Source of the DNA: Cinnamomum chago
Taxonomy: Eukaryota > Streptophyta > Magnoliopsida > Laurales > Lauraceae
Reading direction: 5' to 3'
Assembly (NCBI GenBank): GCA_038049695.1
Contig: CP142456.1
Location: 23,036,501-23,100,500, forward strand
DNA: 64,000 nt
Part shown: piece by piece, positions 24,091 to 57,659 of the stretch
How the letters are laid out: every line of letters starts with the position of its first letter
Numbering within the stretch: the first letter of the stretch is position 1
The notes under the pieces: generated by a model
Database searches by the model: none
What the model saw: only the letters and a program-made list of their open reading frames with translations
Told to the model about the DNA's origin: nothing
Position numbers and translations under genes: made by a program

Positions 24091-24129
24091 GTAAGAATAG
24101 TTCCTTCTTGAGTTGAAATATGAGAATGC

Positions 24130-33485: not shown

Positions 33486-33517
33486 GGGATAACACAGGCT
33501 GCAGCCTGTGTGATCCC
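33486..33517. repeat. Terminal hairpin of the first FAR1-type element
   Basis: A 16-bp inverted repeat without loop: GGGATAACACAGGCTG then CAGCCTGTGTGATCCC, with one mismatch. It sits between the leader exon of the minus-strand FRS gene and a (TA)n tract at 33523-33537. By analogy with the neighbouring elements it marks one end of the MULE that carried this gene. I found no matching end beyond the 3' side of the gene. Confidence 0.6.
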
Positions 33518-33818
33518 TTCCCATATATATATATATAGCAAGGCTTTCCTAAGCTCAAGTTTAGGATAAACTCTTGTAAGCTCATGCTTGTAGGGTCCAC
33601 CTTTGATCCATCCAAATGAATCAAACAAACGACCCCTCTAAATTGCACATGTCCACCAACTTTCGGTCAGATCCGAATTTACTGGACCGTTGGATCGACT
33701 ATGTATCGATCTGAATGGACTATTAATCATTAAACTTTTGGGCCCATATGGAGATGATAGAAATCACGGCTGAGGCTGGTTTTTGCAGAGAAGAAGATCC
33801 AATATATATATATATATT

Positions 33819-34000
33819 GGGGGTATTCAAGTGAGGGATTCCCTTACCATGTGTGGTGAGTGACTCCTTTTTGGAGAGGTTTCAAGTACAAAATTGTGTA
33901 CTCCCTTCAAGTACAAAAGCCGTTTTGTACTTGAAACCTCCCAAAAAAGGAGAATCCCTCACCACACATGGTGTGGGAATCCCTCACTTGAATATTTCCC
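33819..34000. mobile_element. Palindromic MITE B in TA microsatellite
   Basis: 182 bp. The ends gggtattcaagtgagggatt and the reverse complement of ccctcacttgaatatttccc match, and inside ccatgtgtggtgag / accacacatgg repeats the symmetry. TA tracts lie on both sides (33803-33818 and 34001-34014). The copy at 44078-44259 is inverted relative to this one. Confidence 0.8.
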
Positions 34001-34014
34001 TATATATATATATA

Positions 34015-34199
34015 GGGAAAGTTTCAAGTGCATCTATCCCTCACCATAGGGTGAAAGACACTTCCCATTTTTGCACATGAAGACAAGGATGTGTACCTCA
34101 CCCTATGTCGTTGAAAAGTAACTTTTGTACTTGAAAATGCCCAATTATGAAAGTGTCCCTCACCCTATGGTGAGGGATGGATGCACTTGAAACCTCCCC
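34015..34199. mobile_element. Palindromic MITE C in TA microsatellite
   Basis: 185 bp, from gggaaagtttcaagtgcatc to gatgcacttgaaacctcccc, so the two ends are inverted copies of each other. TA tracts lie on both sides (34001-34014 and 34200-34215). No counterpart in the right arm, so it entered after the arms formed or was lost on the right. Confidence 0.8.
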
Positions 34200-34215
34200 A
34201 TATATATATATATAT

Positions 34216-34462
34216 GGGAAATGTTCAAGTGTATCCATCCACTCCCCATAAGGTGAGGGATGCTTCCATAAATGGGGGATTTCAAGTACGAAAGGGGGAT
34301 TTCAAGTACATAGGGTGTAGTACAAAAGGGGGATTCATGTGCAAAAAAGGAAAATGTCCCTCACCCTAAGGTGAATAGGGTGAAGTACAAAATGGGGATT
34401 CATGTGCAAAAAAGGAAAATGTCCTTCACCATAAGGTGAGGGATGGACGCACTTGAACTTTC
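34216..34462. mobile_element. Palindromic MITE D in TA microsatellite
   Basis: 247 bp, from gggaaatgttcaagtgtatc to ggatggacgcacttgaactt. It holds an internal direct duplication of about 70 bp (aaggggg.attcatgtgcaaa, aaaaggaaaatgtcc..cacc). Its inverted relative at 43896-44058 lacks the duplication. TA tracts flank it. Confidence 0.75.
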
Positions 34463-34488
34463 ATATATATATATATATATATATATAT

Positions 34489-35225
34489 GGGAGAGGCTCT
34501 CCTCAACTGCTTCAACTGCAGTTGAGGAGAGCCTCAGCTGCAAGCGTGCATTTGAAACGTGTGGATTTAAAAGAGAGATGGGTCAAACTGCTGCCTCGTC
34601 TGGATATATATGGAATGAGTGAAATTTCGCCCGCCCGCCCAAAATCGATCGTTTCCCACCTTCCTCTCCAGCCCTAATCGATCGCTGCGACCAGACCCAT
34701 CTCTTCCCTGCGATCTCTCTCTCTCTCTCCCTCCCATCGCTTCTCTGCACTGCGAAGAGTCCACCTTCCTCTCCAGCCCTAATCGCTCGCTGCGACCAGT
34801 GGTGTCTCTTCCCTGCGATCTCTCTCTATCTCCCTTCCATCGCTTCTCTTCCTTGCGCAGAATCCAGCTCCGCTGTCGCTGTTCCGTTGCTGCGTCTCTA
34901 CTGCAAAGTCGATCTCTCCTGCTGCATTTCCTCTTGCGTCGTCTCTCCCGCTGGACCTCTGCAGAGGGTTTCGAGTTGCTTTCATCTCTCCTGATCTCGT
35001 CGAGCTCTTCCGCCCTTGCTGCTGCTCTCCCTCTCTCGTCGATCTCTCTCATCGTCTCCCCCACTGTAGTCTCCCTGAAGTCATCTCTTGTTTCGATTTC
35101 CCTACAACGGACCAAGCCCCTCCCTCAGCAACTCTTCTACACAAAACAGAGTAAGAAAACACTTCTAGCCTGCGCAAAAAAAAAAATTTCTTTTTTTCCA
35201 ACTTTGCATTTGTTTCAGATCTGCT
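34489..35225 (+). repeat. Left terminal inverted repeat of the MULE
   Basis: Begins with the hairpin tip, then tgcaagcgtgcatttgaaac, gggtcaaactgctgcctcgt, a GC-rich CGCCCGCCCGCCC stretch, then CT-rich leader sequence with an internal near-duplication (accttcctctccagccctaa occurs twice), a donor ACAGA/GTAAGA at 35150/35151 and ttgcatttgtttcagatctg. The right repeat holds the same features in inverted order. Confidence 0.9.
34600..35150 (+). promoter_or_regulatory. Promoter and leader exon of the second FAR1-type gene
   Basis: The likely promoter lies inside the terminal repeat: tatatatggaatgag at about 34606, then the CT-rich leader that ends at the donor 35150/35151. The intron 35151-35794 leads to a CCAG acceptor 13 bases before the start codon. 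The right terminal repeat holds the same promoter in the opposite direction, which would send a transcript outward to the left into the 3' part of the gene. Confidence 0.5.
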
Positions 35226-37599
35226 CCTTTGCTTTTACTATTGCATTTCCAACCATGGATGAGCCACTCCCTTTCTTATGTAAGACACCTCTCTGTCATC
35301 TCCCTCATGCATTTTTAATTGTTTTGTGATCCTGGCCATTGATTTGGTACCCCATTATGGACTGATTTTAATTATTTCATGATCCTGCCCATTGCACTAA
35401 AAATTCCAAGTTCAAAAGGCTCAAATTATTTTCAAAATCATGGAACCATTTTCAAATTTCATGAAAATATTCAACTAGCCCCTTCCAGATCAGTTTTCAT
35501 GTAACCCCAATTGAATTCGGCCTTCTCCATGGTTGCCACTTTAATGCATATATTTTGAGCTAATGGTCTGGATTGAGAGCTGAAAGCCAAATTGCCCCAT
35601 TGCACTAATAATTTAAACAGAGATAACTCATGCCTATTGCACTATAATTCCCACAGAAAATAGGGTAATTTATTTGGGGTTTTTGTCTTTTGTTCATGTT
35701 ATTTGGGGTTTTTGTCTTTTATTTAGTCATGGTTTTATAACTTATGAATTTGGGTTTGTTATTCATGAATATGATTTAATTATTTGTGATCCAGATTGCA
35801 TCTGGATATGACCTCCTCCTCATCACCAGTTGTCCATTACCCGGTTGTGGATGAAGCCATGACACCAAGATTGGGCGTGCATTTTGATGATTTAGATGAG
35901 GCATATAACTTTTACAATGCATATGGAAAACTCGCTGGATTTAGTATAAGAAAAGAATCTAGTAATAGAGGCAAAGATGGGGAAGTTGTATGGAAGCGAT
36001 TTGTCTGTTCAAAGGAGGGTAAAACAGATGAGAAACACTGGATTGATGAGGAACTTGTTCAAAGACGTCGAATGGAAACAAGATTCGATTGTAAGGCTAA
36101 GATGCAAGTGAAAATAGATAAGTCAGGTGGTTATGTGGTATCCAAGTTTGTACCACAACACTCTCATGCCCCCGCTACTCCTGGTAAGAGATTTATGCTG
36201 AGGTCGCATCGTGAAGTGCCAGAATCAAAACGGTAACTTATAAACACATATGATTCAGCAAACGTGCGAAACAAACAACAAATGCAAGTGTTTGCATCTC
36301 AATCTGGGGGACTAGACAAAATTGGATTTACAAATAAGGATGCCAAGAATCACCGTAGGGATGAAAAGGAAAAGAGAAGGGGGCTAGATGGACAGTTGTT
36401 ATTTCAACTTTTTGAAAACCGCAAAGAAATGGGAAATGGTTTCACATATACCATTGAGCGAGATGCAGAAAAGAAGATAACACATGTGTTTTGGGCAAAT
36501 GGAGCATTTCTTACGGCTTACAAAGCATTTGGTTATGTGGTGACATTTGATACAACCTACAAGACAAACTGTTACGAACTTATTTTTGCCGCTTTTGTAG
36601 GTTGCAATCACCATTAGGCAAACTACTTTATTCGGATGTGGGTTTCTACCAAATGAAAAAATGGAGTCTTTTGAGTGGTTGTTTAACACTTGGCATGAAG
36701 TCATGTCCTTTGGTCCACCAAAGGGTATTATAACAGATCAAGATCTCGCAATGACAAAAGCTATAAAGAATGTCATGCCAAATATCATTCATCGGTATTG
36801 CCTATGGCACATTTTGGATAAGTTGCCTACGAATTTAGGAGGGATTCATATTCACAATGAGGGTTTAATAGAGCAGATAAAAAAATGTGTTCATAACTCT
36901 AATACTACTGATCAATTCGTGAGTTTTTGGAATCAGATCATAACAGACAATAAGTTTATGGAGAATAATTGGTTGGCGGATATATTTAATATTCGTCATA
37001 TGTGGGTTCCGGCATATTTAAAGGAAAAAAAAATTTGTGGCATGTTGACCACTCAAAAAAGTGAAAGCATGAATGCATTTGTGAAGCAGTATGTAGAGTA
37101 CAAGAATTCCCTCCTTGATTTCATATTGCGTTTTTGTCACGCCCCCGAACCGGAACCTCGGGGGCGGGAAATGGGATTAACATAAATTATACATTTCTCC
37201 CAAGATCCGCGTGTGTGAAGACAACACATACCAACACATTCTGAATATTTTGAGGAAGCTTTCGTGGCGTTGCAACCCGGAGTCCGTGGCCATCGGATTC
37301 CGCGTCGCACTCAACCTTTAGCATATAGCTATCATATCGAGAATCATCTCAGACTGGAGTAAACCATCACAATAAATTACAGAGCTGACAGTAACAAGAT
37401 ATTACATTCCCATATATGTTCCAGTTACAATTAACAATGTACATTAATTAAGAATCCCAAGAAAACGGCTAATAAAAGCCATACAACAATAAGCTATAAC
37501 CACTACCCCATATATGACGTAGCTCCGATGTCAAGCTCAATGTCTACGTGACATAGCCGACAAACCAACCTGCAAAGCATGGCTCCACAGCCATTAAAC

Positions 37600-38340
37600 G
37601 GGTGCAAAATTGTGGATCTCGGGCAAAACATGTATTCGTTTCAAGCATGGGTAAAACATGAATATCTAATAAAACATGTGTTCATTTACATCATCTATAA
37701 TCATAGATATTTGACAATTGGGTGTTCGTCTAAAACATGTATAAATATAGTGGTTTGACAAAACAAACGTTCATTTGAGACTTAGGTAAAAACATAAGTA
37801 TACAACAAACCAGGTATTCATAGCAGTCTTGGCAAAACCAATGTCCATTTGAAACATATGTAAAAATACGGATATTTAACAAACCGGGTGTTCATTTAAA
37901 ACAGGTGTAACCAAAGAAATCTGACAAGACTAATGTTCTTTTAAACATATTTCAAGTATGGATATTTAACAAATCGGGTATCATTTAAAAACAGGTATAA
38001 ACATAGGAATCTGGCAAACCAAATGTCCTTTAAAACAAAGCACGGATATTTAACAATTCGGGTATTCCTTTAAAACATGTGTAATCATATAAATCTAACA
38101 AAATCATTGATCGTCTGAAACATATATAAAAGCATGAGTATTCACCCAACCGGCATTCATTTAAAACATGTGCGTGTACAAGGAACAGAAAACAATATAA
38201 TAATAATTGAATTTACATTGGAGAATATGAACACTTGTTTAAATAACAACTTTCATAAAGGAAACGAATCATTTATCGGGAAGCAAGTAAGCAATATAAA
38301 ACGTGTCGGGTATCCAAGGAATCGGGAACTGGCAAGATGA
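37600..38340. repeat. Degenerate tandem repeats in the solo LTR
   Basis: Eight or so units of about 65-75 bp built on tatttaacaaa.cgggt.ttc followed by atttaaaacatgtgtaa. Further on, 38455-38525 has cgggacgggaccacgg twice with aaccgggtatcggg. These are typical LTR-internal satellites. Confidence 0.75.
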
Positions 38341-39059
38341 CAATCACAAGAAGCTAAGTCCTCTATCACCGAAGTGACAAGAGTATAACGGGACGTTGGT
38401 CTCAGTCACACAAGGTGAGGAGACTCAAAGCAATCATATATACAATATAAATATACGGGACGGGACCACGGTAGCGAACCGGGTATCGGGACGGGACCAC
38501 GGCAATAACCGGGTATCGGGATCCAAACTGCAGCTGGCGGGACGGGAGGGATCTCCAAGTCAGTGGATCAGACTGACAAGGTTATCCAAGCTTAGTGATG
38601 CCGACTCATAGGTCAAATAACAAATCGAGACATATGCGAGCAAATCAAGTACAATAAATAAACGGGTAAAACGGGGGTGCTCAAGGGCACACTGTCATTT
38701 CATGTCGGGCAATACATTTCGGGACAATAACTGTTACTAGTGTAACTTCAATGCTTTCGGGAAAACAAGTCATGTGATACAAATCTTGGAAATGAGGTGA
38801 AACAATGAACTATTACAATTTCGGGAAAAATATTGATTTCAAGATCTATTTAAGTGAATAGGGGTCCCGTATGTCGATTATTGAAATGATTTGGTACTCC
38901 TTGAGTTTGAAGACATTCCGGGCTCCTTATACACTTTGAATTTTCAAAACTTCGAATGACATCCTTGTGATATGGTTTCTTTCTCAGATGGCCTCATACA
39001 ATGCCTAGTGAGTCTCCTTCGACCGACAAAGCTCAGCGCTCAGCGCTCGTTCGAGCGAG

Positions 39060-39400
39060 GAGCTTTTCGAAATCTGGGGAATTTCGGTTACCTGGCGGTC
39101 AGCTGGCGGTCAGCCGCCGCTGGGATGGGCGGCTAGCCGCTGGCTGACCGCGCAGCTGACCGCGGTTGGGCTGCAAAAATGCAGCTTACTGGAAATCTGA
39201 CCGCCAAGTGCGGTTATCTGGCGGTTAGCCGCCGATGTGTTCGGCGGTTAGCCGCTGGCTAACCGTGGAGCTGACCGAGTTTTCAGGCGGAGAAGTGTGC
39301 TCTCTGGAAAAGCAACCGTGACATTTCGGCTACCTGGCGTTTAGCCGCCAGTCACCAGGCGGCTAGCCGCCGGGTGACCGCAGGCTGACCGCCAGGTGCG
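39060..39400. repeat. GC-rich palindromic stretch in the solo LTR
   Basis: Repeated words ggcggtcagc, ggcggctagccgc and gctggctgaccgc, many of them self-complementary, in a region far richer in G and C than the surroundings. It probably folds strongly. No coding sense. Confidence 0.75.
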
Positions 39401-42237
39401 GGAATCACCCACTGTGTTCAGATTTAAGCCCTTTCTCCCCCTCAAAACCATTCTCCTCACTTCCACTTAATCCTTGCCACAAAACTGAGCTAAAAGCTCC
39501 TCCAATGCAACTATCTACACTTCTCCACAACTCCAATATGGGTTCATTCCATCACCTCATCCATCAATATCAAATCCAATGCAATTAAAGAAAGAAGGAA
39601 ACCATTTCACAATGGGTACATTTGATATAAGCAAGAAGAAATTAAATGACATTCACCAATACACTTATAAGACATAATGCACTACCATGAATGCACTACC
39701 AAAGCTCTATCATGGGCATTTATTTCAAACCAATGTAATAAATAGGCATGAGTGGAAAATACCAAAATCATTGAAAGCTTATAAAATCAAAACATCCACT
39801 TGCCTTAAGTCCAAGCTAGCCAAAAATCTAGAGATAAATAAGGACTATTGGTTACATTTCCATAACAATAGATGAGTTAGCAGAACTCTTTAAATGAGCA
39901 TCTACTTCCAATCAATGCAAGCTAATAAACATAAATATGAATGGAATAACCAACCCCATTCATTATAAAACCATATGAGCAAAACTTTGACCAAATGAAA
40001 TGCCTAATTTCCAAGAGATTTAACAAGAGAGCAAGACCCATTAATATGCATTTTCGAGATCAATAGAAATGTGGCAAGAACACATGTGAAAACATATATC
40101 AAATTATCAAAAACAAGTAATAACATTTAGGATTTCTCATAAAACTTTGATAACATTCAAACCATCCATTCATCCACTTGCCTTGGGTTCCAATTAGCTA
40201 GACCAAGCCTCTAATCACTTCTCAAGCTCAAGATCAACAATCTCTACAAAAACCCCCAAAACAAACCCTAAAATGGGTTAAACAATGAAAGACAAGGAAT
40301 GAGCTCAAACCAAGCTAGGAAATAGAACCTAAGGGAGAGCCATAGCACATACAAGGAAAATGGGAAGGAGTCTTTACCTCTAAGGCCATGAATGAACAAG
40401 AAGAAGCTTGCAATAGGGGCTGCCCACCTTGGTTTTGCACAAGAATCACATCCATGGGAAGCTAAAGAGATGGGGAAGAAGATGGCATGTTGGGGTTTCC
40501 AAATGGCAAGAGTTTCTTCCAAGAAATGAGAGGAGAAAGCAAGAAGAAATGGAAGAAATGAAGAAGAGGGGTTGCTGGCACTGTAGCTGGGAGTTGCAGC
40601 CGATGGAGTGGAGAAAATGAGGGAGAAGAGAGAGTGGAGACATCTTATAATGGGTGGGTGTGGGCCCCATCACACTTAAAACTTGCCAAAGGGTAAAACA
40701 TCTATTTGTGGGCCTCGGATGCGATCGACGAAGAAGAGAAAAATGTTTCTCATAAAATCTAGTTTTCAAAAAGTACAATTTTGGCATGGTTCTGAGATCT
40801 CGAAATTTGGGTCCAGATTCAATGTGAAAAGACCGATTTTGCCCTCAGGGCTGGAAAAACTGATTTTCGGAGCTTCGAATGGGTACGGAGTGAACACGAA
40901 AGTTGTAGAGAATAACAAAACGAGTCAAATGAGGCTAAAACAAGAATTATCGGGAATTTTGAATAACCTCCCAATCACGCGCAAAGTCACTAAAAGAACC
41001 CCCAAAGGGTCCCACTAATCACAAAGGCCCTCAAAATTCCCCAAAACTAGAGAAAAACCATTCTAGCTCACAAACTCAACCCAAAAAAACTAATCCCACT
41101 AAAAGAAACTAATCCACAAATAAAACAACACTAATCCAAGAGATTAGGGGTCGGGTTCTCACAGTTTTGATGCCGGGGTTGAATGTCTAAAGTATCTTGA
41201 AAAGAAAGAGGATTTTGAGAATAGCAATGGGGGGCCTAAAATGAAGACATGTTCACCAATGGAAAAGCAAATGGCCGAAGTATATACAAGAAACTTATTT
41301 TATAAGTTTAAAGATGAGTTATTCAACACCATGTCAGTTGCAGAAGTTATTGTATACGAGGATGATGTCACCTGTAAGTTCGTCGTGAAAAATTATTCCG
41401 ATGAGAAGCAAATTGATAGAGAGGTTTTATGGAAAAAAGACGAGAAACATGTATATTGTTCTTGTAAAAATTTTGAATTTGAAGGCATCCCTTGTTGCCA
41501 CATTTTGTGTGTCTTGAGGAGATGTTCTATACTATTTTTACTCAAGCGTTTCATTTTGAAGCGATGGATGAAGGGTGTTACAAAAGATGCATTTGTAGAT
41601 GTTGAACCGGGTGGATCTGTCGGTGTTAACCAATGCTTGGCTCGACATAGTCACTTGTCATGTATGTTTACAGGGCTTATTGACATAGCTAGTCAATCTA
41701 GAGAAGGTTTTGATTTTTTAATCAGTAGTCATAAGGAATTGGAAATGAAATTAAGTCAGTTGACATTAAACAATCCATCAAATACAAGCATTGATAAAGG
41801 GAATGGACTTGTCAATAGTAATGTGGTTGAATACCATGAGCCGGCGCATGTTGTAACAAAAGGACGCGCGAAGAGACTTAAATCATCGAAGGAAAATGCA
41901 ACAAAAGGGCGTCTTTGTAAGGGTTGCAACAAGCGCGGTGTATCACATGACAAGCGAAATTGTCCGGTGTTGCTGAACAGGTAAACGATTTAATATTAGT
42001 TTTCTTATTATCTCCCATGTTTCATATATAACTATTACTTATAAAAAAAAATATTTCAGGTTAGCTGAGGATGATCTAGGGAAGTCACTAGACTCTAACT
42101 TTGGAAGTAGAGAAAGCTCCGATGATGATACAGGTAAATAATTTATTTCTTATTTTTATGATGACGAATGTTGATGTTTTTATTTCCCTCCATAATTTAT
42201 CACAAGTTGCATGTCTATTGCAGCTCAATTACTATAA

Positions 42238-42943
42238 TGCAGATATGAGACATGAAGACTTTATGCAGCGAATGAGACATGGAGACTCCAATCATCTTCT
42301 TTGTTATGCCCACCTTTTGTTCCTGTAGTTTTGATGAAGAAAAACATTTGAAGCAAGAATTTAGAACTGCAACGTTAAAACCCCGTCTCAAGATCGAATC
42401 AACATACAATGGCATACAAAGGCATAAAGTTGTTTCATTCATCAAATTAAGTACATGAAAGGTTTAATAATAGTAAACAACATACAATGACATCCACAAC
42501 CACATGTATATACAAGAAGAAATTTATCCATTCGTATAATTTATTCATCATCTATCCATGCTTCTCCACAACAACATGTCTAAGTATACTAAATCCATCC
42601 ATATAAAACATTGTTCATCCACAGCCACAGCCATATACTTCCATTAATACCTAGAGATTTCACTATCATTAAAAAAGGCTCATAAAAAAGTAAAGAGTGG
42701 CTGCTATAATGCAGGATCAACTGATGGCATTTGGAGCACCTTTATCTTGAAGTATAAATTCTCTTATGCAAAAACATGGATGAAGATTTAATACAGATGG
42801 CCTACTTATAGTATTTCCATTTGAGAAATTCCACAAGGATGCTCCTCTCCTTTAGTTGGTGGGCTACGGTTTACAATCATGTCAATGATCTTTGTTTTTA
42901 CGGTTTACAATCATGCCAATGATCTCTGTTTTAATTATTAAAA
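42238..42943. other. MULE interior beyond the transposase gene
   Basis: AT-rich 3' part between the last FRS exon and the right terminal repeat. No second gene seen. A short duplication ggtttacaatcatg.caatgatct occurs near 42867 and 42901. Confidence 0.6.
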
Positions 42944-43877
42944 CAGATCTGAAACAAATGCAAAGTTGGAAAAAAAGGAACAGATCTTAAACAAATGCAA
43001 AGTTGGAAAAAAAAACACAATTTCCATCTCACATTCCCGGATCTAAAACAAATTAAAGAAACAGTCCTAGGCCAGAAGTGTTTTCTTACTCTGTTTTGTG
43101 TAGAAGAGTTGCTGAGGGAGGGGCTTGGTCCGTTGTAGGGAAATCGAAACAGAGAGATGACTTCAGGGAGACTGCAGTGGGGGACACGATGACAGGCAGA
43201 CACAGCTGCAGCAAGGTCAACGTCCGAGAGCGAGCGATGGAGGCACCTTCTTGTCAAACTCGCCCCTAGGCAGAGCGCCAGCGGCAGAGACGATGCGAGA
43301 TGGAAAGCAGTAGCGCGAAAGAGATCGACGAGAAAGGGAGAGCAGCAGCAAGGGCGGAAGAGCACGACGAGATCAGGAGAGATGAGAGCACCTCGAAACC
43401 CTCTGCAGAGGTCCAGCAGGAGAGACGACGCAAGAGGAAATGCAGCAGGAGAGATCGGCTTTGCAGCAGAGACGCAGCAGCGGAACAGCGACAGCGGAGC
43501 TGGATTCTGTGCAGGGAAGAGAAGCGATGGGAGGGAGATAGAGAGAGATCGCAGGGAAGAGACACCAGTGGTCACAATGAGCGATTAGGGCTGGAGAGGA
43601 AGGTGGACTCTTCGCAGCGCAGAGAAGCGAGGAGAGGGAGAGAGAGAGAGAGAGATATCGCAGGGAAGAGTTGGGTCTGGTCGCAGCGACCGATTAAGGC
43701 TGGAGAGGAAGGTGGGAAACGATCGATTTTGGGCGGGCGAGCGGGCGAAATTTCACTCATTCCATATATATCCAGACGAGGCAGCAGTTTGACCCATCTC
43801 TCTTTTAAATCCACACGTTTCAAATGCACGCTTGCAGCTGAGGCTCTCCTCAACTACAGTTGAGGAGAGCCTCCCCC
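42944..43877 (-). repeat. Right terminal inverted repeat of the MULE
   Basis: Mirror image of 34489-35225. It includes a duplicated caaatgcaaagttggaaaaaa at the inner edge and an extra segment near 43170-43300 that the left repeat lacks. It ends with the 14-bp hairpin and TCCCCC before TA repeats. Confidence 0.9.
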
Positions 43878-44257
43878 ATATATATATATATATATGAATG
43901 TTCAAGCACGTCCATCCCTCAGCTTAGGGTGAGGGACATTTTCCTTTTTTGCACGTGAATCCTCATTTTGTACATCACCCTATGTACTTGAAATCCCCCC
44001 ATTTATGGAAGCATCCCTCACCCTATGGTGAGGGGATGGATACACTTGAACATTTTCCATATATATATATATATATAGGGAAATATTCAAGTGATGGATT
44101 CCCTCACCATGTGTGGTGAGGGACCCTCCTTTCTGGGGAGGTTTCAAGTATAAAAGGGCTTTTGTACTTGAAGGGAGTACACCATTTTGTACTTGAAACC
44201 TCTCCAAAAAGGAGTCACTCACCACACATGGTAAGGAAATCCCTCACTTGAATACCC

Positions 44258-44297
<40 letters not shown>

Positions 44298-44690
44298 GCA
44301 AGGCTCTCCTAACCTCAAGCTTAGGATAAAGTAAGATCAAGTGTGTAGTGGGGCCCACCTGGAGACCCACATGGGGATGGGGATTGGGGGGATTTCAAGG
44401 ACTCCCTTGGATCTTCTTCTCTGCAAAAAACCAGCCTCAGCCGTGATTTCTATCATCTCCATATGGGCCCAAAAGTTTAATGATTAATAGTTCATTCAGA
44501 TCGATACATAGTCGATCCAACGGTCCAGTAAATTCGGATCTGACCGAAAGTTGGTGGACATGTGCAATTAAGAAGGGTCGTTTGTTTGGTTCATTTGGAT
44601 GGATCAAAGGTGGGCCCTACAAGTATGAGCTTACAAGATTTTATCATAAACTTAAGCTTAGGAAAGCCTTGCTCTATATATATATAAATA
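43878..44690. repeat. Right arm of the 11-kb inverted repeat (outer part, nested MITEs)
   Basis: Blocks D (43896-44058), B (44078-44259) and A (44296-44674) separated by TA tracts (44059-44077, 44260-44295, 44675-44686). Block A is complete here: its ends gcaaggctctcctaacctca and the reverse complement of aggaaagccttgc match. The left-arm A lacks about 120 bases of this. The order mirrors the left arm exactly apart from block C. Confidence 0.85.
44296..44674. mobile_element. MITE A, complete copy, hairpin-tipped
   Basis: 379 bp with inverted ends (gcaaggctctcctaacctca / tgagcttacaag…ttaggaaagccttgc); each end holds a small stem TCCTAA…TTAGGA. Flanked by TA tracts on both sides. The inside (ggcccatatggagatgatag side) is shared with 33538-33802 in the opposite direction. 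Confidence 0.8.
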
Positions 44691-44850
44691 ATTGCGTGGG
44701 AGAGTACTAATTGCTTGCCAAGCAAGGTTGGATTTACTTTGACTGTGCCCTATAATGTATTGCGGCTTCCTCAGCAACTTCTCAGGGTGCTGTAGGTTCC
44801 CAGCTGCTTCTTGGGTCATGGAAGGAGTCAGATACGTTAAGCTAGAAAGT
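44690..44850 (-). promoter_or_regulatory. Promoter remnant of the small-gene family (copy 0)
   Basis: The stretch tatatataaataattgcgtg, then ggagagtactaattgcttgc and caagcaaggttgg, matches the upstream region of the small gene at 52460-52621 (tatatatataactgtgtggg, attaattgcttgccaagcaa). It includes the near-palindrome TGCTTGCCAAGCA at 44712-44724. The coding body that should follow to the left is absent: the TATA tract leads straight into MITE A. So the element complex sits in, or right at, this TATA box. Confidence 0.65.
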
Positions 44851-45737: not shown

Positions 45738-45747
45738 GATACGAAGC

Positions 45748-46942: not shown

Positions 46943-46960
46943 GATACGAAGAACTTGTGC

Positions 46961-47140
46961 TCATAAAAGCGGCAAAATTCTCCACGTCTTTTCAAGGGAA
47001 CTGACAGCGTAGTAGGAGACTACAATTGGGGGCTTTGATTTGGGGTTGCTTTTGGTTTTCACTTTCTTTTTGTGTCCAGTATCATTGGAAAGTCGCCAAC
47101 GAGATCCAAGACAACAGAAAACAGCAGATAAGAGGCCCAT
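46961..47140 (-). CDS. Small plant protein, 59 aa (copy 1 of a local family)
   Basis: Starts ATG at 47140 (MGLLSAVFCCLGSRWRLSND) and ends TGA at 46961. It has a hydrophobic, Cys-containing N-terminus, a Lys/Pro-rich middle (KKKVKTKSNPKSK) and a PPIVVSYYAVSS motif that matches SPIPVSY in the copies at 52.5 and 57.8 kb. These features resemble small plant-specific proteins of unknown function ending in a PI(P/V)VSYFP-type tail. Upstream, a long TATA-like tract lies at 47268-47292, and TGCTTGCCGAGCA at 47310-47322 corresponds to the palindrome of the other copies. The C-terminus differs from copy 2 (…EKTWRILPLL), perhaps altered at the end. No lesion seen in the frame. Confidence 0.55.
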   Translation of the reverse strand: MGLLSAVFCCLGSRWRLSNDTGHKKKVKTKSNPKSKPPIVVSYYAVSSLEKTWRILPLL

Positions 47141-47599
47141 TGTATTTCTTTTGGTTTCTAGAACTGGTTCTGGAAGAAATGCCTTTCTCAAATATTCTAT
47201 AGAGAGTCGCCAGGACTCTTAAGTTTTTTCTTCTAAGATGATGTGCACAGCATAAAGCAAGGGACTATCTATATAATATTATATTATATATGCGCGTGAG
47301 ACTATTTCATGCTTGCCGAGCAATGAAGATGGACCAAGACTTTGGCCGTCTGAGTCCAATTAGTCTAAAATCTATTGATGCTTCCTTCCTCACCAAGACT
47401 TTGACCATCACACACAAACCATCTCACACAAATTGTCTAAAATCTATTGATTCTTCCTCAGCAATATTTTGGGTTGGGGGTTGGGGGGGAAGGACTCCCC
47501 TGTTTGGACCAAACAGGCCATTTCCTTTGGGTGCTGCCTCTTGTCAGCTTACGGATGGAGAAAACTCAGCTGTCAAATAGGCGACCATCATAGAAATTT

Positions 47600-48265: not shown

Positions 48266-48488
48266 AACGACCCACAGTCATGATGGAAAACTGACTTTCG
48301 AAAATTCTGATAGCCTCTGTGCGACGAGAGGGAACTGTAGTTGAGAAGAAAATTATTTAGATTCTTTCGGTGGGCTTTTTGTTTGGTGTGACACACTTTT
48401 GAACATGAAAAAGGAAACAATAAACTAATTTCCTTGCACCTAGAAGCTTTCAATTTCGTATTGCTAGGGTAGGAACGAAAATCTGTTT

Positions 48489-50701
48489 TGTTAGGGTTTT
48501 TGTAGATTGCAATTTGATGGATGCATAATCATTCTAGCATCATTTGATTCACACACTTGCATTGTTTTAGATAAACTTGAAATCTTGTTTTATTCATGCA
48601 TTGCTTTTAAGATTTGTAAAAGTATCAATTTATGCATGATTTGCTTTAAAACTTGGATGCATTTGATTTTGAAAAGAGTTTTAGAAATCAAGCTAGCCTT
48701 TGGTTTTAAAGTTTTGAATCATTTTAGGCTTTGTGTGTTTCATGTTTTTAAACATCTTAGAATGATTTAAAACATGTTTTTAAGCTTGATTATATGGCCC
48801 AAATAGTTCCACAAAGAAAAACTTTGAAATTGCAAAATATTGAAATTTGGGGTCCCGGCAGTGTCGCCGGTCGACCGGCGCAGAGGTCCCGGCCGACCGG
48901 GAACACTGCAGGCAGAAAGTTGGCCTGATGCACCAACGGTCAGAATTATGACCGTTGTGTGATCCCGGTCGACCGAGACCTGTTTGCAGGTCGACCGAGG
49001 ACTAGCCGTTGGGCACTTTTTGCTATAAATATAGTTCTTTCCTTTGCCAAAAGTTGGGAATTTTAAGCCCCTCCTTTAGAGGTTTTGAGGCATATTCAAG
49101 GGAAATGAACTAAGGGATGAAGAAGAGCATTAGGAAAGCTAAAGCTTGGATTAATGAAGTTAAATATCCAAGTAGGCTTTACTTTCCTTAATCATATGTT
49201 TTCATGCTTTGTTTTATTTTTGGTAAATCATTTCTAGCATGTTAAACTATGTTTGTGTTGTGTCCTTAACATGTTTTTTTGTTTTGAGTTGATTTATTGT
49301 TTTGGATACAACACCATATGATTCAATCCAAGTAGTACTTAATCTTTGGTAAATCTAAGTAGATCATGTTAATGAAAGAACCTTTGAAATTATATGTAAC
49401 ATGATTCCTATACTTGGTTGAATCTTTGGTTGTTGTTTTCCATCATAAGAAAATCACTTTCAAAACTATCTTATGTTTTGGACTCATCTTCTTTACAAAT
49501 CATATGTTTTCATGTTTTGTTTTATCATTGGTAAATCTTTAGTAACATGATAAACTATGATGTGTTGTATCCTTAGCATGTTTTATACTTTGAATAGATC
49601 TATTGTTTTGGATGCATCACCATTTGATTCAATCTAAGTAGTACTTTATCTTTGGTAAATCTAAGTAGATCATGTTAATGGAAACATCTTTGAAATTAGA
49701 TGTAACATGATCCATATACTTGGTTGAATCTTTGGTTGTTGTTTTCCATCATAAGAAAATCTCTTTCAAATGTATCTTATGTTTTGGATTCAACATCTTT
49801 ACAAATCATATGTGTATTATTGTTTTAAAGTTTCACAACTTGCCTTACTTTGATAGGTATATCACTTTCAAGTTGTATTTATAACTACATATGATTTGTC
49901 CCCTCTTTTCAATCAAATCTATTTTTATGTTTTGAGCTACATGTTGATTTGATTGACATCCCTATGCTTCACATGTTTAGAGCTAATTAATTTCATACAA
50001 CTTGTAAATCTTTGATCTCATTAACAAGTTGTTACTTTTAACATGTGATTAGCATTTCCTCAATCATAAATGTTTTTGAGCTAAAACTTTCAATAGCCTT
50101 AGGCATACATTTATGAGCTTTCATTTTCAAAATGATTGAGGACCACACACACACACTTCATGTACTTTCATCTTTGCATTCATAGTGTGAGTGTGTATTA
50201 GATTTTCACTTCCATATCCGCCTAATTAAGAGGCATTGTAATGAGCTTAATTGAATCTCCATCAAGTGTTTATAGACACTATCTTAGTGAGATAACCAAC
50301 CTTGTGGTTGAAGAGGTTATTGCTTAGCCTATAAAAGCATAATGTATAGGTTGATGTTAAGCCTTTAAAAACATCAATGTAAAGGTTATTGCTTAGCCTT
50401 GAAAAGCATATTGTAAAGGTTATTGCTTAGCCTATTGAAAAGCATAAATAGTGGAAATCCGGTGGGGTGTTGGATCACAAGCCGGTAGTGGATGTAGGCA
50501 TTGAGGCCGAACCACTATAAATACTTGTGTGATGGTGATTGCTTTGTGGTGATTCTTTTGTTAGCTTCCGCATCTTGTATGATTAATCATCACATGTGAC
50601 TAGTTTGTTTTAAAGAAGTTAAAATTGATTAAAATTGGTCATAATTGAAGCTCACCCTATTCACCCCCCCCCCCCTAGGGTTCGGATCCCCTGGACTTTC
50701 A
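48489..50701 (+). mobile_element. Solo LTR (2.2 kb), copia-like
   Basis: Starts TGTTAGGGTTTTTGTAG and ends CCCCTGGACTTTCA; TGTTT is duplicated on both sides (48484-48488 and 50702-50706). A TATA box lies in gctataaatatag near 49022, after a GC-rich block with repeated ggtcgaccgg words (48850-49010). The 3' end has the C-run and ctaggg typical of the ends of some large copia LTRs. No coding domains inside, so it is a solo LTR. Confidence 0.85.
49190..49800 (+). repeat. Tandem duplication of about 305 bp in the solo LTR
   Basis: Two copies, about 49190-49495 and 49496-49800, each beginning aatcatatgttttcatg.ttt and containing aagtagtactt.atctttgg and gaatctttggttgttgtttt. They are about 90% alike by eye. 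Confidence 0.85.
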
Positions 50702-50767
50702 TGTTTCTCTTGTGAAAAAAAAAAAAATATGAGGAGAGTGAAATCCTCTTATCATACAAAGAGGTCT

Positions 50768-51105
50768 TAAAAGGGCGTGTTTGATAATAGGTGACAAATA
50801 CATGAGGAGAAGATTTGAGGATTCCTCACTGCCATAAATTTAAAAACTTATTATTAAAGATTTGTGAAGCTGAGGAATTCACATTGATATGGGTGTGTAT
50901 TTGTATGTATAGATGAGAAGAATTGACATCAGCGTGTAAATCTGCAAAACTATGAATTCTCGAGTCCTATGAGGGAAGGCCAGACTTGAAAAATCCTCAA
51001 ATGATGAGGATTTCCACGGACCCACATGCGATTGTCAACATGGATTTATTAAATTCGTGAGGAAAACTGATGAGGTAACCGAAGAATTTGGCAGTCAAAC
51101 ATGAC
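50768..51105. mobile_element. Possible Harbinger-like MITE
   Basis: The left end aagggcgtgtttgataa and the reverse complement of the right end (ggtcatgtttgactgcc) match over the core catgtttga/cgtgtttga; TAA-like triplets lie on both sides. The inside carries gatttgaggattcctcact and gaggatttccacgg. About 340 bp, no coding sense. Confidence 0.4.
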
Positions 51106-51109
51106 CTAA

Positions 51110-52100
51110 CGCTTTCAAAACCTAGTGATTGGGCTTGCTAATTAAACATAAGACCATCCCAAAAAATCATGTTTTTGATGATGGTTTTGCATTAAAAATA
51201 TATCGCTTGATTGTAACCCAATTTCAACTTATGCACTTCTTAGACTTCGTTACTAGAGAGTCCTGTTCAAGAGTCCCGCATGATACATCAGATAATGTTG
51301 AAAAGAAAATATCATTTATATATGTTTACTTGACGGACCTTATTAAGTTGGATTGCCTAGTCATGTTTGATTGTGGACAAATTTGGTGAAAGAGAATATC
51401 TTAGTAAATTTTGGCCCTCCCTCAATGTTTAATTATTATTTTCTGTAGATTTATTTTCACGAAACCTAGTGAAATAATATATTTGTGGATCGGTGCAAAA
51501 TTAAGAATAGTATCAATCCAACTGAAGACTTGAGCCACCACTTATTCATGTAGGGGTATTTGATATTAATGCCTAGAGAGTAAAAAAAAAGGGAAACTCC
51601 AAGGAGACTCAAGTGCCATTTGGAATTTCTGCTTTTTGTGTATATTTGATTTAAAACTAATTCAAATAGATGTTTCAATATTTTAGTGTATATATATATA
51701 TATATATTTTTGGTTTGCCCTCTTGGATCCCAGGATAATTCTGTGATACCATGATGCCAACACTTGTCAACTAGGAGTGTGTTGCCCCTTTATTACATTT
51801 AAATTTCAGGTGCTTCATACAGGTCTTATAACTGGACCAATGGTTGGTCTGGACCACTGGTCCGGGTTGGAGTTTCACTCCGTAACATGCATCCCATCAA
51901 CCCAAAACGAATTTAGGTTTCAACGTATATCCAACTAGAGGTTAAAAGACCCAAGCCCAATATTTACAAGTTCGGTTGGCACTTGGCAGGTCAATTAGTA
52001 AGTTCGGGAAATGCACTCGGGCTAACAGACGGAACGTCAACTTGGTTCAAAACTCAGAAGTCACAACTTGAACCAAACACATTTCATAAGAAAGCAGTAA
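51110..52100. other. Spacer without recognised gene
   Basis: No gene seen. (TA)n at 51689-51708. A segment with ctggaccaatggttggtctggaccactgg (51834-51862) is internally repeated. Confidence 0.5.
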
Positions 52101-52766
52101 AAGTCAACCCAAAATCACTATTAAATAAATAAGGTTTGATTGGTGCTCCTACCTTCCCAGACCAGACTCTTGGAAATGGTCCCAAGTCCAGTCCTGGAGG
52201 TAAGAACAAATCTCAATCTATACATATCTACATGAAACAACAGCATAAAAACATACATATTCCATTCATAGTACCCCCATAAGCTTGCCTTACAACACAG
52301 TTAGAGAGTCTCGACTTCACAGCAATGAATCAATCAATCACACCCCCTTCAAAACCCAAGTTCTGGCCCTTTTTTGTATTCTCCATAAGCAGGGAAATCA
52401 CATGAGCTCTTGAGAATCAGATGGAGCGTTTGCCAGATGAGAGAGAGATATATCTGATCCTACAAGAGAGACAAACGGGAATTGGCAAGGAAATAAGAAA
52501 CTGGAATTGGGGACTTCGATATGGGCTTGCGTTTGGGTTCAGCTTCGTTTTTCTGCCCATCATCACATGAGACTTGCGAAGGAGATCCAAAACAGCTGAA
52601 AACAGCTGACAAAAAGGCCATCTTTGTTTTCTTTTGATTTTTGGGAACTGGTTCAAGAATATCTCTTTCTTTTCCCTAGCTTTGTGGAGAGAGCTGCAAA
52701 TAAACTTGATTTGTATTCCTGCTTGTGATGAATTGCAGAGCAGAGAGGCAAGAGCCTATATATATA
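52100..52766 (-). repeat. Inverted segmental duplication, copy at 52 kb
   Basis: This 0.67-kb segment and 57660-58305 are inverted copies of each other, about 5 kb apart. They share the small gene, its leader, and about 350 bp downstream (cattgctgtgaagt.ga.act, tactatgaatggaatatgta, ggactt.g.accatttccaa and ttatttatttaatagtgatt-like text). So a whole gene unit was duplicated. Confidence 0.9.
52460..52621 (-). CDS. Small plant protein, 53 aa (copy 2, intact)
   Basis: ATG at 52621 (AAAGATGG context) to TAG at 52460. The protein begins MAFLSAVFSCFGSPSQVSCD, has a charged Lys/Glu/Pro middle (QKNEAEPKRKPISK) and ends SPIPVSYFLANSRLSLL. The layout (short hydrophobic Cys-containing N-terminus, basic linker, PIPVSYF tail) is that of small plant-specific proteins without known function; I recognise the pattern only loosely. 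The N-terminus could be a membrane-association or signal segment. A TATA box (52757-52766) lies 136 bases before the ATG. The neighbouring copies at 47 and 57.8 kb show that this coding frame, and not a longer one across it, is conserved. Confidence 0.7.
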   Translation of the reverse strand: MAFLSAVFSCFGSPSQVSCDDGQKNEAEPKRKPISKSPIPVSYFLANSRLSLL

Positions 52767-52825
52767 ACTGTGTGGGAGACTATTAATTGCTTGCCAAGCA
52801 AGGAAGGATTGACTTTGACTGTGTC
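52757..52825 (-). promoter_or_regulatory. TATA box, palindrome and W-box cores upstream of copy 2
   Basis: In gene direction: two TTGAC/GTCAA cores (GTCAAAGTCAA, 52809-52822 on the plus strand as ttgactttgactg), then the near-palindrome TGCTTGGCAAGCA (52788-52800), then TATATATA at 52757-52766. The palindrome is kept in the remnant at 44.7 kb and nearly in copy 1. WRKY factors bind TTGAC-type W boxes, so pathogen or stress control is possible but inferred. Confidence 0.5.
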
Positions 52826-53639
52826 AAAAAATGTATTGCTGCTTCCTCAACAAGTTCTGAGGGTGCTAGCGGTAGGTTCCCAGCTGCTTCATGGGTGATG
52901 GGGCTTGTTAGGCAATTCTACTATTTGAGTGAAATAAGGTAAAGCCTCCTTTATGAAAAAAAAAATTTCACTAAAAGCACTTTAATTCAAATTTTTTACT
53001 ATAATTTTTTCAAAAAGAAGTAAAAAAGTAACTTCATTTCTCCACTAAAAGATAAAAAAATTCTACTTTTCAATAAAAAAAAAACAGTAAAAAAGATTCT
53101 ATAAAAAACAACTAAAATCAAAATACTATCATAACCCACTGATATTTTATTATTTCTTCAAAATAACTTTTACTCCACTCAACTTTATTAGTAAAGCCCC
53201 TCCATGGTTGCACTTTTAGGCCCTATTTCTTTAGTGAAATTTTTATCAGGAATTCATCATGTCCAGGAATTCATCCGCTCACCACGTGTGGATGTTTCAA
53301 CGAAAAAAAGTCATTTAACTCTTTCCGGGTCCCGTTTGTCTTGGAGACGAAAAGAAGTAACGAAAATTGAGCTTTTCATTTCCCTCCATCGCCCGCCCTT
53401 TTGGTTTTCAAGCCCTATTTCTTTTCAGAGAGAGACGGAGAACGCCCAATTGAGTGACATCAATCTGCGGCACAGTTGAGAACGAGGCATCGCCCAGTTG
53501 AGTGACTTTTTTTCTTCTTTCATCTGCGGCACCGTTCGATCATCTGTAAGTACGTCAATCTGCGGCACCGCTTGAAAAGATCTGTCTCTCTCGCACAGTT
53601 GAGAACAAGGCATCCTATCCTCTTTTTTTTCTTATTGTG

Positions 53640-55780
53640 CTTCTGATCCTTCGGCCAGATCGAGCTCGACATCTCTCTATTTCTGGCACGACAAAGAGGG
53701 AGAATCTGAAAGTTATTTTTGTGTTAATGATATTTTCTATCTGAAGTTTCAGAGATGGCTCTTGGTTTTAAGTTTAGGGCTTTCAAATTGGGGGTTTTAG
53801 GGTTTAATGATTAGGGCTTTCAAATTGGGGGTTTTAGGGGTTTATAATGATGGATTTGGAACAGAGGATCTTTGGGTTTAAGCATTGCAATCTCTAGATA
53901 CGTGATGTGGGTTCACGTTATAAGAATTTATGTTTTCTGAAACTTTGTGTTTTTAAAATTGTAGAGGTCTGAAAGATAATGAACCCTGGAGCATGTTTGA
54001 GAGAGGGGGATTTGAATGCAAATGAGTGCTTCATTCACATGGAGTACTGTGTTCTGATAGTGAGATTGTCTTTGATTCGATAGAGTTCAAGAGATGGAAG
54101 AGGCCATGGAATAGGAATTAAATGATTTAAGAGAATAATTTATTTCTGTTGTTTCTTTTTTTATCTGGTTGCAAACAACATTCTCAGCTTTGCGCGCGAC
54201 ATTCTTGTTTTCGGTTGGACTGTTGGTATCGTCTTCACGTTATGTAAAAAAAATGAAAATTTATTTTGGGTGGATTGATGGCATATTCCTCATGCTAGCA
54301 TAGCACTCAAATGCTATGGTCATCCATGATCCAACCATCCCAAAGTATCTTTCATCCAAGATACTGAAGGCTAAGTCGAATTGTAAGGTCCTTATGTATC
54401 ATTTGCAAGACCACCACCAGTATTTGATCATAAAATCAAAATTATTTTTTTCATGATATCAACGGGATTCAGCAGTTAACCATTTTTTCATCATAAAGAT
54501 CAAACATTTCTAACAAGAAATTGTGCTACCTGTAATGCCACATTTGATTAGACCACAAACATATTTATATGTAAATGATCATCATATTCATATTAAGGGA
54601 TTATAAGATCAATTGCTTCAGGAGCTGTTTGTTGCAATCATCCAGGACCAGGAGACGTCCTAGTACCAAAATTTGACATTAAACGTTGATGCATTGACAA
54701 GATACTGTGACATTTTGTGATCTTAGCTAGGTTAAACAAAATCTGAGAAAATCTGTATCAATTCACATTTCTACAATCCACCAGGTTGCAAATAAAATCC
54801 ATGTTAAATAGAAGCAACTTACATTTCTCGATGAGCTGCAATTTGCAGTGATAACGTTTGGATGCACAACATCAAAGCCAAAAGCTCATATAAAGGTCCC
54901 AGATTGATATCAAGTGAATGCTACAGCTAGATTCAATCCATTTGCCCTACAGAAATATTCATGCTCTCCGATACACCTAATAAGCAATCTGAAACATCAT
55001 CACCTACATGTGTCAATGTCATTATTTGAGTTTTTCGAAAAGATCGGGTTTACGTAGTGGCTAAATATACCCACTGAACCATCAAGTGTGCAAGTTCTCT
55101 GTTGGATGCATACTGAAATTTAATTTTGAACACCTTTTTAGTTCTGAAAATCTGAAAATCCCAATTTTTTCCTCTTTAGAACTTTCCATAGATATAATGA
55201 ATAACTCGATATTTTGAAATCCATTTTTTGCTAAATCAAAGATAGAACAGTAGATTTCACTATTAGTAATATCAGATAGCAAAGAGGGCCCCTTATGACA
55301 TCTGATCATTCTGATCAAATAGACCCAGGTCATGAAATATACTTATTTCTTCAAACAGAAGTCTTACAATTTTTCTATCATAAAATCTCTTATAAACATC
55401 TGATAAAATAATTACAACTATACAAATTGAAAGTATCAAATGGAGAAAGACTCTCTTGGAGAAAGGATTCCATCTCTTCGTAGTTTGTAAGGTACGATCA
55501 GTTGGGTCCCAACAGGTCAAGAACATCACTTTCATCAATGATTCTTCTAATTTCTAGGAAGAGAATGAAATAAGAGATGTTAAAATTCTATTCAGTTGTG
55601 GAGAAGTACCCATGTTCTTCTTTGCTCGCTGAAGTAGAGATCTGCCGACAGAATAATTCCATTAGAAAAAAAAAAAGAAAAAACCGAATTGAAAATACTA
55701 CAACTTGCCTTAACACGGGCAGAGGTCCCAATAAAAACAATCTCAGACGAATATCAATTTAAAAGTGATTAAACTAATAG
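53640..55780. other. Interior of the MULE-like element, no gene
   Basis: AT-rich. Two near-copies of agggctttcaaattgggggt lie at 53796 and 53814-53833, a short tandem duplication. No reading frame of known family; the few longer frames are short and unconserved by eye. Confidence 0.5.
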
Positions 55781-56720
55781 TTAACCCTAATCCAGATTAA
55801 GCAATCAAACCACAACAGAGAAGGACACGCAAATTTATTCATGGAAAACCTTGCTCGGGAAAAAACCACGGGCCTTACTGTCTAGGCCAACAGACAACCA
55901 AGCACTATGTAAAACTTGAAGATTACAAGACACTTACAACCCTTGCAAGTTGCTGACTCAACCTAAGGACTGCTTCAGTTCTTATTGACTGCTCGTCATG
56001 AATCTTCACCGTGCTTGAACAAAGGAGTCTTCGAGAAAAGCGATGGAATCAGACCAAGACTTGAATCATCAGCATAGCAACAGAATTGGCAACCTTGGGG
56101 CAGAACAATGGATCTCTCAAACTCTCACATGAGAGGATTTCTTCTAATTCCGAGTCCTAGTGAGAGGAGAGACAAAAAGCCCTTTTATAGAGAGTATTTC
56201 GTTTAAGAAGGGCTACACCAAACAAGTATCTTCCTTCAAAGAAGTTAGAAAGAAAAGATCGTCAAAAAATAGAATTCCTAAGTTCGCTCGAGTGGTCAAG
56301 AGGTTCGCTCGAGCGAACTGCTTTCTGGAAACAAACTTTTAGTGCAATGCTTCATCGGTCGAGCGAAGGGAGATATGCGGTCGAGCGAACAATTCTCTGT
56401 TTAGGGTTCGCTCGAACAAACATCAAGCGAACCTTTTGTTTGTCTTTAAATTCTTTATTCCAGAACCTAGATGGGTTGAGCGCACGCAATGATGGGTCAA
56501 ACGAACTAGCTTCTGGTTGGTCCGCTCGAGCAAAGGAAGGGTCGCTCATTGTAAATCTACAGTATCTGGACTCTTTGGAAAACTTTCTATTTAAAACTCT
56601 TGCAGTCCTTTCCTAAACTCAATACATGGTTAAAGAATCCCAGTTTTGCCCAATAACCTATGAATTAGCCAACTAAAAGACTTTACACGAATCATGTTCT
56701 GGAAAAACAAAACCCAAAGC
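55780..56720 (-). mobile_element. LTR-like segment of a copia-type element
   Basis: Read on the minus strand: gttcgctcgagcgaac-type palindromes, a TATA box in ctataaaagggctttttgtc (56176-56195), then a transcribed-looking tail with gcaagggttgtaagtgtctt, ccgtggttttttcccgagca, aggttttccatgaataaat, which is the usual R-U5 layout of plant copia LTRs. Exact ends and target duplication could not be fixed. No coding domains next to it. Confidence 0.6.
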
Positions 56721-57414
56721 TGAGTGTGTTTTCCCACTTGCAAAAAAAGTACTCGAGAGTTTATCACCCTCTTTCTATCACATAGTTATTATGATAAAAG
56801 AAACCATTGAAAATAAGAAAGAAGAAATGACATTTTTGCAAACAACCGAGAAAGATAGAGAGGGCATTAAAAAAGCATTCAGGAAAAAAGAGAGTTGAGA
56901 GAGAAAGCGAAACATAGGGAGAGAGAACGAAACCTTCAAATAATCCCAACGCACCTACCCTTTATTTCAGCCCAAACCTTCAAAATCCCCGCCCTAAACC
57001 CTCCATTTCAACCCAAACCCTCAAAATCCCCAAACTCTTAAAAAAAAAAGAAGAAGTTAAAGTGAGAGGGAGAACCTGTCGGGCGGGGCCAAATCCTCCT
57101 TCCTCTTCATTCCTTTTTCTCCATCTCCCTGTGGGCGTTTCATCTTCTCCTTCTTTCTCTCCGTCTCTCTCTTCTGAAAACAAAAAAGAGCTTGAAAAAC
57201 GAAAGGGCGGTCAATAGAGGGAAATGGAAAGAATATTTTCGTTACTTCTTTTCATCTCCAAAAGTTAATTCTTTTAAATTTAAACAAAACAAGCCAGACC
57301 CGGAAAGAATTGAGTGACTTTTCTTTGTTGAAACATCCACACGTGGTGAGTGGATCCTCTCCTCAGCGTTAGCTCAGGAGAGGCCTCCCCTATATATATA
57401 TATGTATATATATA

Positions 57415-57656
57415 GGGGATGGCTCTCCTAAGCTGCAGCTTAGCTTATCCTAAGCTGAAATAGGGCTGGTCCCACAAATCAAAGTCGATTATGTTGTTTT
57501 TGCATGATGATGGTCTCCAAAGTCAAGATAAATCCAATCAGAACTGAATTTTTCAGTTCCATCATGCAAAAAACATATATAATTAACTTTGATTTGTGGG
57601 ACCATCACTATTCTAGTTTAGAATAAGCTAAGTTGTAGCTTAGGAGAGCCCTACTC
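57415..57656. mobile_element. Palindromic MITE E in TA microsatellite
   Basis: 242 bp with arms of about 100 bp that mirror each other: ggctctcctaagctgcagct at the left, agttgtagcttaggagagcc at the right, then ggtcccacaaatcaaagt on both arms. Each tip is a small hairpin (CTAAGCTGCAGCTTAG). TA tracts lie on both sides (57391-57414 and 57657-57673). Same tip design as the elements at 34-44 kb. Confidence 0.85.
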
Positions 57657-57659
57657 ATA

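Follow-up and report, generated by a model that had tools for sequence, protein, structure and literature searches.

A stretch of 64,000 nucleotides of the Cinnamomum chago genome (GenBank assembly GCA_038049695.1, contig CP142456.1, positions 23,036,501 to 23,100,500 of the forward strand; hereafter the window, in whose coordinates all positions are given) contains a row of short inverted-repeat modules and larger elements that are joined to one another by (TA)n tracts, some of them ending in hairpins. The question raised by this locus is what kind of elements assemble in such a way, and how their present order arose. We consider it to be, very probably, an array of microsatellite-targeting Mutator-like elements (MULEs) of the MuTAnT and SaTar kind. 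In such an array, MULEs whose transposase combines FAR1, MULE and SWIM domains, as in the Jittery sub-group, would insert themselves and their derivatives, miniature inverted-repeat transposable elements (MITEs), into (TA)n; as insertion would leave TA on both sides, the site would remain a target and modules would stack end to end, uninterrupted.

Modules joined by TA tracts

The elements and MITE-like modules are listed below; TIR denotes a terminal inverted repeat.

33486 to 33517: hairpin tip of element E, whose right end lies at about 33523; 16-bp stem with one mismatch and no loop, 7 bp from (TA)7
33538 to 33802: module A, truncated at one end and flanked left and right by (TA)7; corresponds in inverted orientation to part of 44295 to 44674
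33817 to 34000: module B, TIR of 92% identity over 79 bp; inverted copy at 44078 to 44260
34015 to 34200: module C, present on the left side only, TIR of 84% over 63 bp, flanked left and right by TA
34215 to 34463: module D, with an internal 65-bp tandem duplication; inverted copy at 43895 to 44059
34488 to 43878, plus strand: MULE M, 9391 bp, with long TIRs and hairpin tips
43895 to 44059: module D', inverted copy of D
44078 to 44260: module B', inverted copy of B
44295 to 44674: module A', inverted and longer copy of A, both ends present
53273 to 57390: element G, about 4.1 kb, with a hairpin tip at its right end (57356 to 57383)
57415 to 57657: module F, a MITE with tips akin to those of A and M, TIR of 88% over 89 bp, bordered by TA at each end

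From left to right, the right end of E is followed by A, B, C, D, M, D', B' and A', with TA between each, and after A' a further TA tract leads into gene-upstream DNA from position 44687. The remainder of E extends leftward of its tip. A second cluster, further to the right, consists of G, TA, F, TA and the body of a small gene from 57674. The end-to-end modules belong to different families and none interrupts another; M alone holds a 4-kb insertion, which is of another type. As regards module D, its tandem duplication occupies positions 34310 to 34439 and is lacking in D'.

Fourteen tracts of at least (TA)5 occur in the window, as against none or one in each of 20 simulations, and 12 of them contact module ends, those at 57391 and 57405 being tallied separately. 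The remaining two are the tract at 52757, which is unoccupied and lies upstream of a gene, and an unrelated one at 51689. All 18 ends of the nine modules A, B, C, D, M, D', B', A' and F adjoin (TA)5–17. This count is partly circular, as TA tracts helped to set the module borders, and it includes one end, the right edge of A, that was produced by truncation. One end each of the two larger elements, E and G, also adjoins a TA tract. The sequence-only reading had placed TA on both sides of hairpin-tipped ends; in the elements bearing the tips at 33486 and 57356, TA was seen at one end only.

Hairpins were sought with a stem of at least 12 bp, at most one mismatch and a loop of at most 10, arms of very low complexity being excluded. 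The window contains 21 of them, compared with 0–5 in each of eight first-order Markov simulations. Of the 21, eight are situated no more than 30 bp from a TA tract, a zone that covers 1.6% of the window; four of these eight are element tips and the other four are two element ends joined across a TA tract. The four hairpins previously named as tips proved to be real, lying at 33486–33517, 34493–34535, 43840–43873 and 57356–57383, each 6–8 bp from a tract of at least (TA)5. Hairpin tips as a trait common to the element ends held for these four, whereas the tips of A are shorter and imperfect hairpins, and B, C and D, judged by eye, are without a tip of this type.

From these traits the sequence-only reading had proposed a distinct system of transposition. 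TAFT of maize and Micron of rice are also cited in the papers on TA-microsatellite elements considered here. The proposal of a new transposon system was rejected, as TA-microsatellite MULEs with foldback ends, a Jittery-like partner and end-to-end arrays have been published under the names MuTAnT, SaTar and pineapple mMITEs (PMC4486113, PMC5907723 and PMC8449440). MuTAnT of Medicago truncatula is a family of TA-microsatellite MULEs with modular foldback TIRs and a putative autonomous copy encoding a Jittery-like protein, and 14 of its 218 copies lie outside perfect (TA)n, the others within (PMC4486113). Compared by description only, MuTAnT and AutoMuTAnT resemble the present elements in their (TA)n location, their modular foldback TIRs with distal GGGG/CCCC ends, and the coexistence of short non-autonomous copies with a large copy bearing a Jittery-like transposase; the transposase reading frame comprises five exons there and a single uninterrupted frame here (PMC4486113). 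SaTar elements and the AgS- and ArS-MULEs of guayule and rice likewise form TA-joined end-to-end arrays of different families, none interrupted, and share their tracts with TA-flanked autonomous or defective autonomous MULEs, but most guayule families have some copies with 10-bp target site duplications, none of which is readable here (PMC5907723). The Ac-mMITEs of pineapple are Mutator-derived MITEs in (TA)n which form clusters via adjacent insertion; their authors found no autonomous partner, in contrast to the FAR1/MULE genes in and beside the present array (PMC8449440).

MULE M, its transposase relatives and the hairpin tips

The genes and tips on which the assignment to MULEs depends are as follows.

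29562 to 31850, minus strand: uninterrupted stop-to-stop frame of 762 codons with FAR1, MULE and SWIM domains
34493 to 34535: left hairpin tip of M, 18-bp perfect stem, loop of 7, nine bases longer than the right tip
35749 to 42130, plus strand: broken transposase gene of M, interrupted at 37135 to 41163, its two blocks matching the gene of E
37135 to 41163: insertion of 4029 bp in this gene, with TG...CA ends and a 5-bp direct repeat GTTTT (by eye)
43840 to 43873: right hairpin tip of M, 16-bp perfect stem, loop of 2

M has the long terminal inverted repeats of a MULE: its arms (34534–35170 and 43072–43841) measure 0.7–0.8 kb, and the 141 positions aligned within their first 150 bases are 98% identical. 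The first block of its transposase gene contains two in-frame stops, and the insertion that separates the blocks is LTR-retrotransposon-like as judged from its ends, no long terminal repeats (LTRs) having been identified. The frame at 29562–31850, which is probably the transposase gene of E, gave Pfam matches to MULE (3.5e-31), FAR1 (2.1e-20) and SWIM (1.7e-06), FAR1 being N-terminal and SWIM C-terminal. The flowering-plant sub-group of Jittery combines an N-terminal FAR1 with a C-terminal SWIM or CCHC domain (PMC6446971), and the likeness noted here is one of domain architecture, not of phylogeny. Together with the MULE or SWIM matches in the two gene pieces of M, and with the tip sequence GGCTCTCCT carried by M, this frame bears out the earlier suggestion that a FAR1-type MULE is the likely source of transposase. 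The GGCTCTCCT motif occurs eight times in the window, whereas 0.26 occurrences are expected.

The gene of E and the broken copy in M are 88% and 83% identical in DNA sequence over the two blocks. Among 731 codons, 105 changes lie in synonymous codons and 161 in nonsynonymous ones, and a rough hand estimate places the ratio of nonsynonymous to synonymous substitution rates near 0.5; fewer nonsynonymous changes per site are as expected for a once-working gene, and the frame of E would encode a working transposase. No relatives of the E protein were confirmed in viral contigs, and no solved structure matched it at an E-value of 0.01.

The tips of M, A, F and G are alignable with one another. Our alignment comprised eight tips of our own choosing (both ends of M, both ends of F, three of A and A', and the right end of G, whose hairpin has 12 bp, one mismatch and a loop of 4), and E was left out. 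With the hairpin of M imposed as the structure, 75.0% of 128 cells pair, compared with 30–48% on sliding by one to three columns. The inner six pairs hold in 91.7% of cells, two of the six showing two-sided changes, and the outer ten pairs in 65%. None of 500 shuffles reached the observed number of paired cells, the number of cells with two-sided changes or the covariation score, while 23 reached the number of pairs with a two-sided change and 290 the number of further pair types. These figures are to be read with the reservation that related sequences can exceed shuffles without any structure, and that the structure was drawn from M itself. The inner palindrome of the tips thus tends to persist, which is compatible with recognition of a cruciform and also with mutation templated by palindromes.

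We regard the hairpins as likely foldback-type TIR modules and not as a proven recognition signal. The idea that the tips extrude as cruciforms and that this structure is recognized by the FAR1-type transposase would account for the retention of the inner six pairs and for the drop in pairing on sliding, but appears improbable on balance: the outer helix pairs in 65% of cells, pair types are no more numerous than in shuffles, the chosen set is small and excludes E, several modules (B, C, D) and the left end of G do without such a tip, and templated repair can keep palindromes without recognition.

Two larger elements call for separate description. The last 81 bp of E are 68–70% identical to both ends of F (TA tract included, low-complexity filter off). 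A perfect 13-bp hairpin at 23572–23603, beside CT-rich tandem repeats and 9.9 kb from the nearest TA tract, is possibly the far end of E or the end of another MULE. The CT-rich stretch (23560–24160) aligned with the right end of E at a score of 31, which none of 200 shuffles equalled (maximum 30), in low-complexity DNA and with a different tip; its score with the left end of M was equalled by 17 of 200 shuffles. G has an inverted repeat (53273–53441 and 57158–57355) of 73% identity over 199 positions and holds nine frames of 73–141 amino acids.

Mirror-image order around M

The modules on either side of M stand in the order A-B-C-D-M-D'-B'-A', in which D', B' and A' are D, B and A inverted and in reversed sequence. 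Collinear, gapped inverted homology extends from 33538 to about 35248 on the left and from about 42956 to about 44672 on the right; none is recognizable beyond, and on both sides it ends inside the TA tract outside A. Divergence was taken as mismatches in the alignable parts, with C, the unmatched part of A' and the middle of D excluded. It amounts to 32 differences in 591 positions (5.4%) for the arms of the array and to 27 in 668 (4.0%) for the terminal repeats of M (Fisher P = 0.29), and B and B' differ by 5.5%. As the array arms and the terminal repeats of M are similarly diverged, both were probably copied or homogenized together. The mirror is best read as one inverted duplication about M or as one composite element, independent insertion being the least likely of the three.

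Our tentative account of its origin, which falls somewhat short of being probable and is much less certain than the assignment to a TA-targeting array, begins with M beside D-C-B-A, followed by a break at the other end of M. Repair of this break would have proceeded by outward copying, starting in M's own inverted repeat and passing through D, B and A, with synthesis ending in a TA tract. Such a copying step would add D'-B'-A' and homogenize the repeats of M simultaneously; C would either have been lost on the right or have been inserted later on the left.

A rather unlikely alternative, of lower probability, is that the whole A-B-C-D-M-D'-B'-A' unit is a composite MULE, with TIRs of about 1.7 kb that had absorbed MITEs, which moved into a TA tract as one. 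The confinement of gapped inverted homology to the two arms and the similar divergence of outer and inner parts agree with it, and MULEs with tandem TIRs, in which acquired sequence can join the extended TIRs, have been described (PMC3310237). These multiple-TIR MULEs resemble the present array in that extra terminal-repeat sequence is piled at their ends, but their additional TIRs are mostly tandem, whereas here different MITE families are separated by TA (PMC3310237). Against it, the inner modules retain their own termini and TA tracts, the left A, about 115 bp shorter than A', is missing one end, and C is one-sided. It is more doubtful still that the same three MITE families were inserted independently on either side of M. 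Adjacent insertion is the published rule by which SaTar arrays grow (PMC5907723) and the modules resemble members of repeat families; yet, given the same families, the order and three orientations would by our own arithmetic arise by chance about once in 48, and divergence is similar in the array arms and in the TIR of M. A weak point against it is that the 5.5% between B and B' is somewhat below the difference between the two halves of B itself, which are 92% identical over the best-aligning 79 bp and 82% over 217 columns including gaps and TA.

Judging by titles and the beginnings of abstracts, no publication among the matches listed concerned mirror arrays of MULEs, which is not proof of absence. 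The excerpts of the MuTAnT paper do not mention mirror arrays (PMC4486113), and those on SaTar do not describe a mirror order around a MULE (PMC5907723).

An apparently split small gene and the probable role of the TA tracts

Both clusters border on parts of a small gene, which belongs to a family with four loci here, termed loc1 to loc4.

44687 to 44821, minus strand: loc1, upstream (promoter-side) half of the split gene, differing from loc2 at 16 of 129 positions (12.4%)
46964 to 47140, minus strand: loc4, paralogue of 59 amino acids, with a TA-rich unoccupied stretch at about 47266 to 47291
52463 to 52621, minus strand: loc2, open paralogue of 53 amino acids, within the paralogue region 52080 to 52905
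52757 to 52766: unoccupied (TA)5 tract, situated 135 bp before the ATG of loc2
57674 to 58323, plus strand: loc3, body half of the split gene, with ACG at the start-codon position and the frame altered near its end

In this family a TA tract or TA-rich stretch precedes the start codon by 125–135 bp, a distance that could roughly suit a TATA box. Loc3 differs from loc2 at 73 of 615 positions (11.9%), and loc4 is more distant (24% from loc2 upstream and 29% in the body, 32% from loc1 and 27% from loc3). Loc1 and loc3 each end at a TA tract; joined at these tracts, they align to positions 4–821 of the 826 of loc2 with 68 gap columns, and the score of the joined sequence (488) is below the sum of its halves (94 and 422) because the gaps adjoin the TA tract. 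Searches of the window with two peptides (tblastn) and at the DNA level (blastn) revealed no convincing third gene body that could belong to loc1 on the left side of the array (best E-value outside the family, 0.042), nor any convincing further body or upstream half, three flanks tested directly giving nothing.

The simplest reading suggested by these comparisons is that an inversion, broken at TA tracts on either side, divided a single gene copy, and its left breakpoint may be any TA tract of the array; two separate half-lost copies are a possible alternative. The Drosophila transposon Galileo is likewise found at inversion breakpoints, but it is another transposon in another host, and recombination there took place between two of its copies, whereas here the breakpoints are TA tracts (PMC2775673). 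Among the matches listed, no publication linked TA-microsatellite MULEs with inversions or with hits in TATA boxes, as far as titles and the beginnings of abstracts indicate, which again is not proof of absence.

The (TA)5 tract at loc2, which is free of any element, was counted in favour of insertion into TA. That the TA tracts are instead parts of the elements and are carried along with them, as the presence of TA at the ends of all delimited modules might suggest, seems very improbable: loc2 has its (TA)5 and loc4 its TA-rich stretch without an element, although neither is a clean empty site given the possible inversion, and in Medicago empty sites average nine TA units (PMC4486113). TA appears to belong to the target and not to the element.

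A number of observations weigh against the interpretation of the locus as an array built by insertion into TA and mirrored by copying. The entire analysis is based on one 64-kb window and the literature. The empty-site argument is weakened because the array may have met the small gene by inversion and not by insertion, and a target site duplication of 9–11 bp (8–11 bp for MULEs) is unreadable within the TA repeats flanking M and the MITEs. The left end of E was not found in the window, the link between its gene and its tip is one of position and of analogy to the layout of M, and the 5' ends of M and E align no better than by chance, their score being attained in 126 of 200 shuffles. The left end of G (53273–53441) has neither a TA tract nor a hairpin at the thresholds used. 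Within the mirror, divergence across seven segments, the tip of M excluded, is not uniform (chi-square P = 0.036), ranging from 1.7% in the repeat adjoining M's tip to 10.2% in part of D, and C, part of A', the middle of D and about 100 bp near 35049 are without a partner.

Two further features of the window lie apart from the clusters. Fragments of a retrotransposon polyprotein extend from 5196 to 6641, where 5196–5933 gave a Pfam match to SH3_retrovirus, with an integrase core below the cut-off, and 6135–6641 appears by eye to be reverse transcriptase-like. At 25118–26223 there is a 190-bp tandem repeat of about four copies (25437–26223) with an inverted partner copy on its left.

The locus is one more instance of stacked TA-targeting MULEs, and the candidate uninterrupted transposase gene beside it offers a means of testing the targeting. 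The mirror order and the TA-bounded split gene are features that a specialist might not expect, and both go beyond the sequence-only reading, which mentions neither. Together they suggest that TA tracts serve as points of rearrangement as well. It is conceivable, if rather unlikely, that a TA-targeting MULE enlarges its own ends by outward copying, giving a mirror-image TIR composed of several families, while TA tracts serve as exchange points which invert the flanks and sever promoters. Were this the case, microsatellite targeting would be an engine of local rearrangement, beyond providing a safe landing place.

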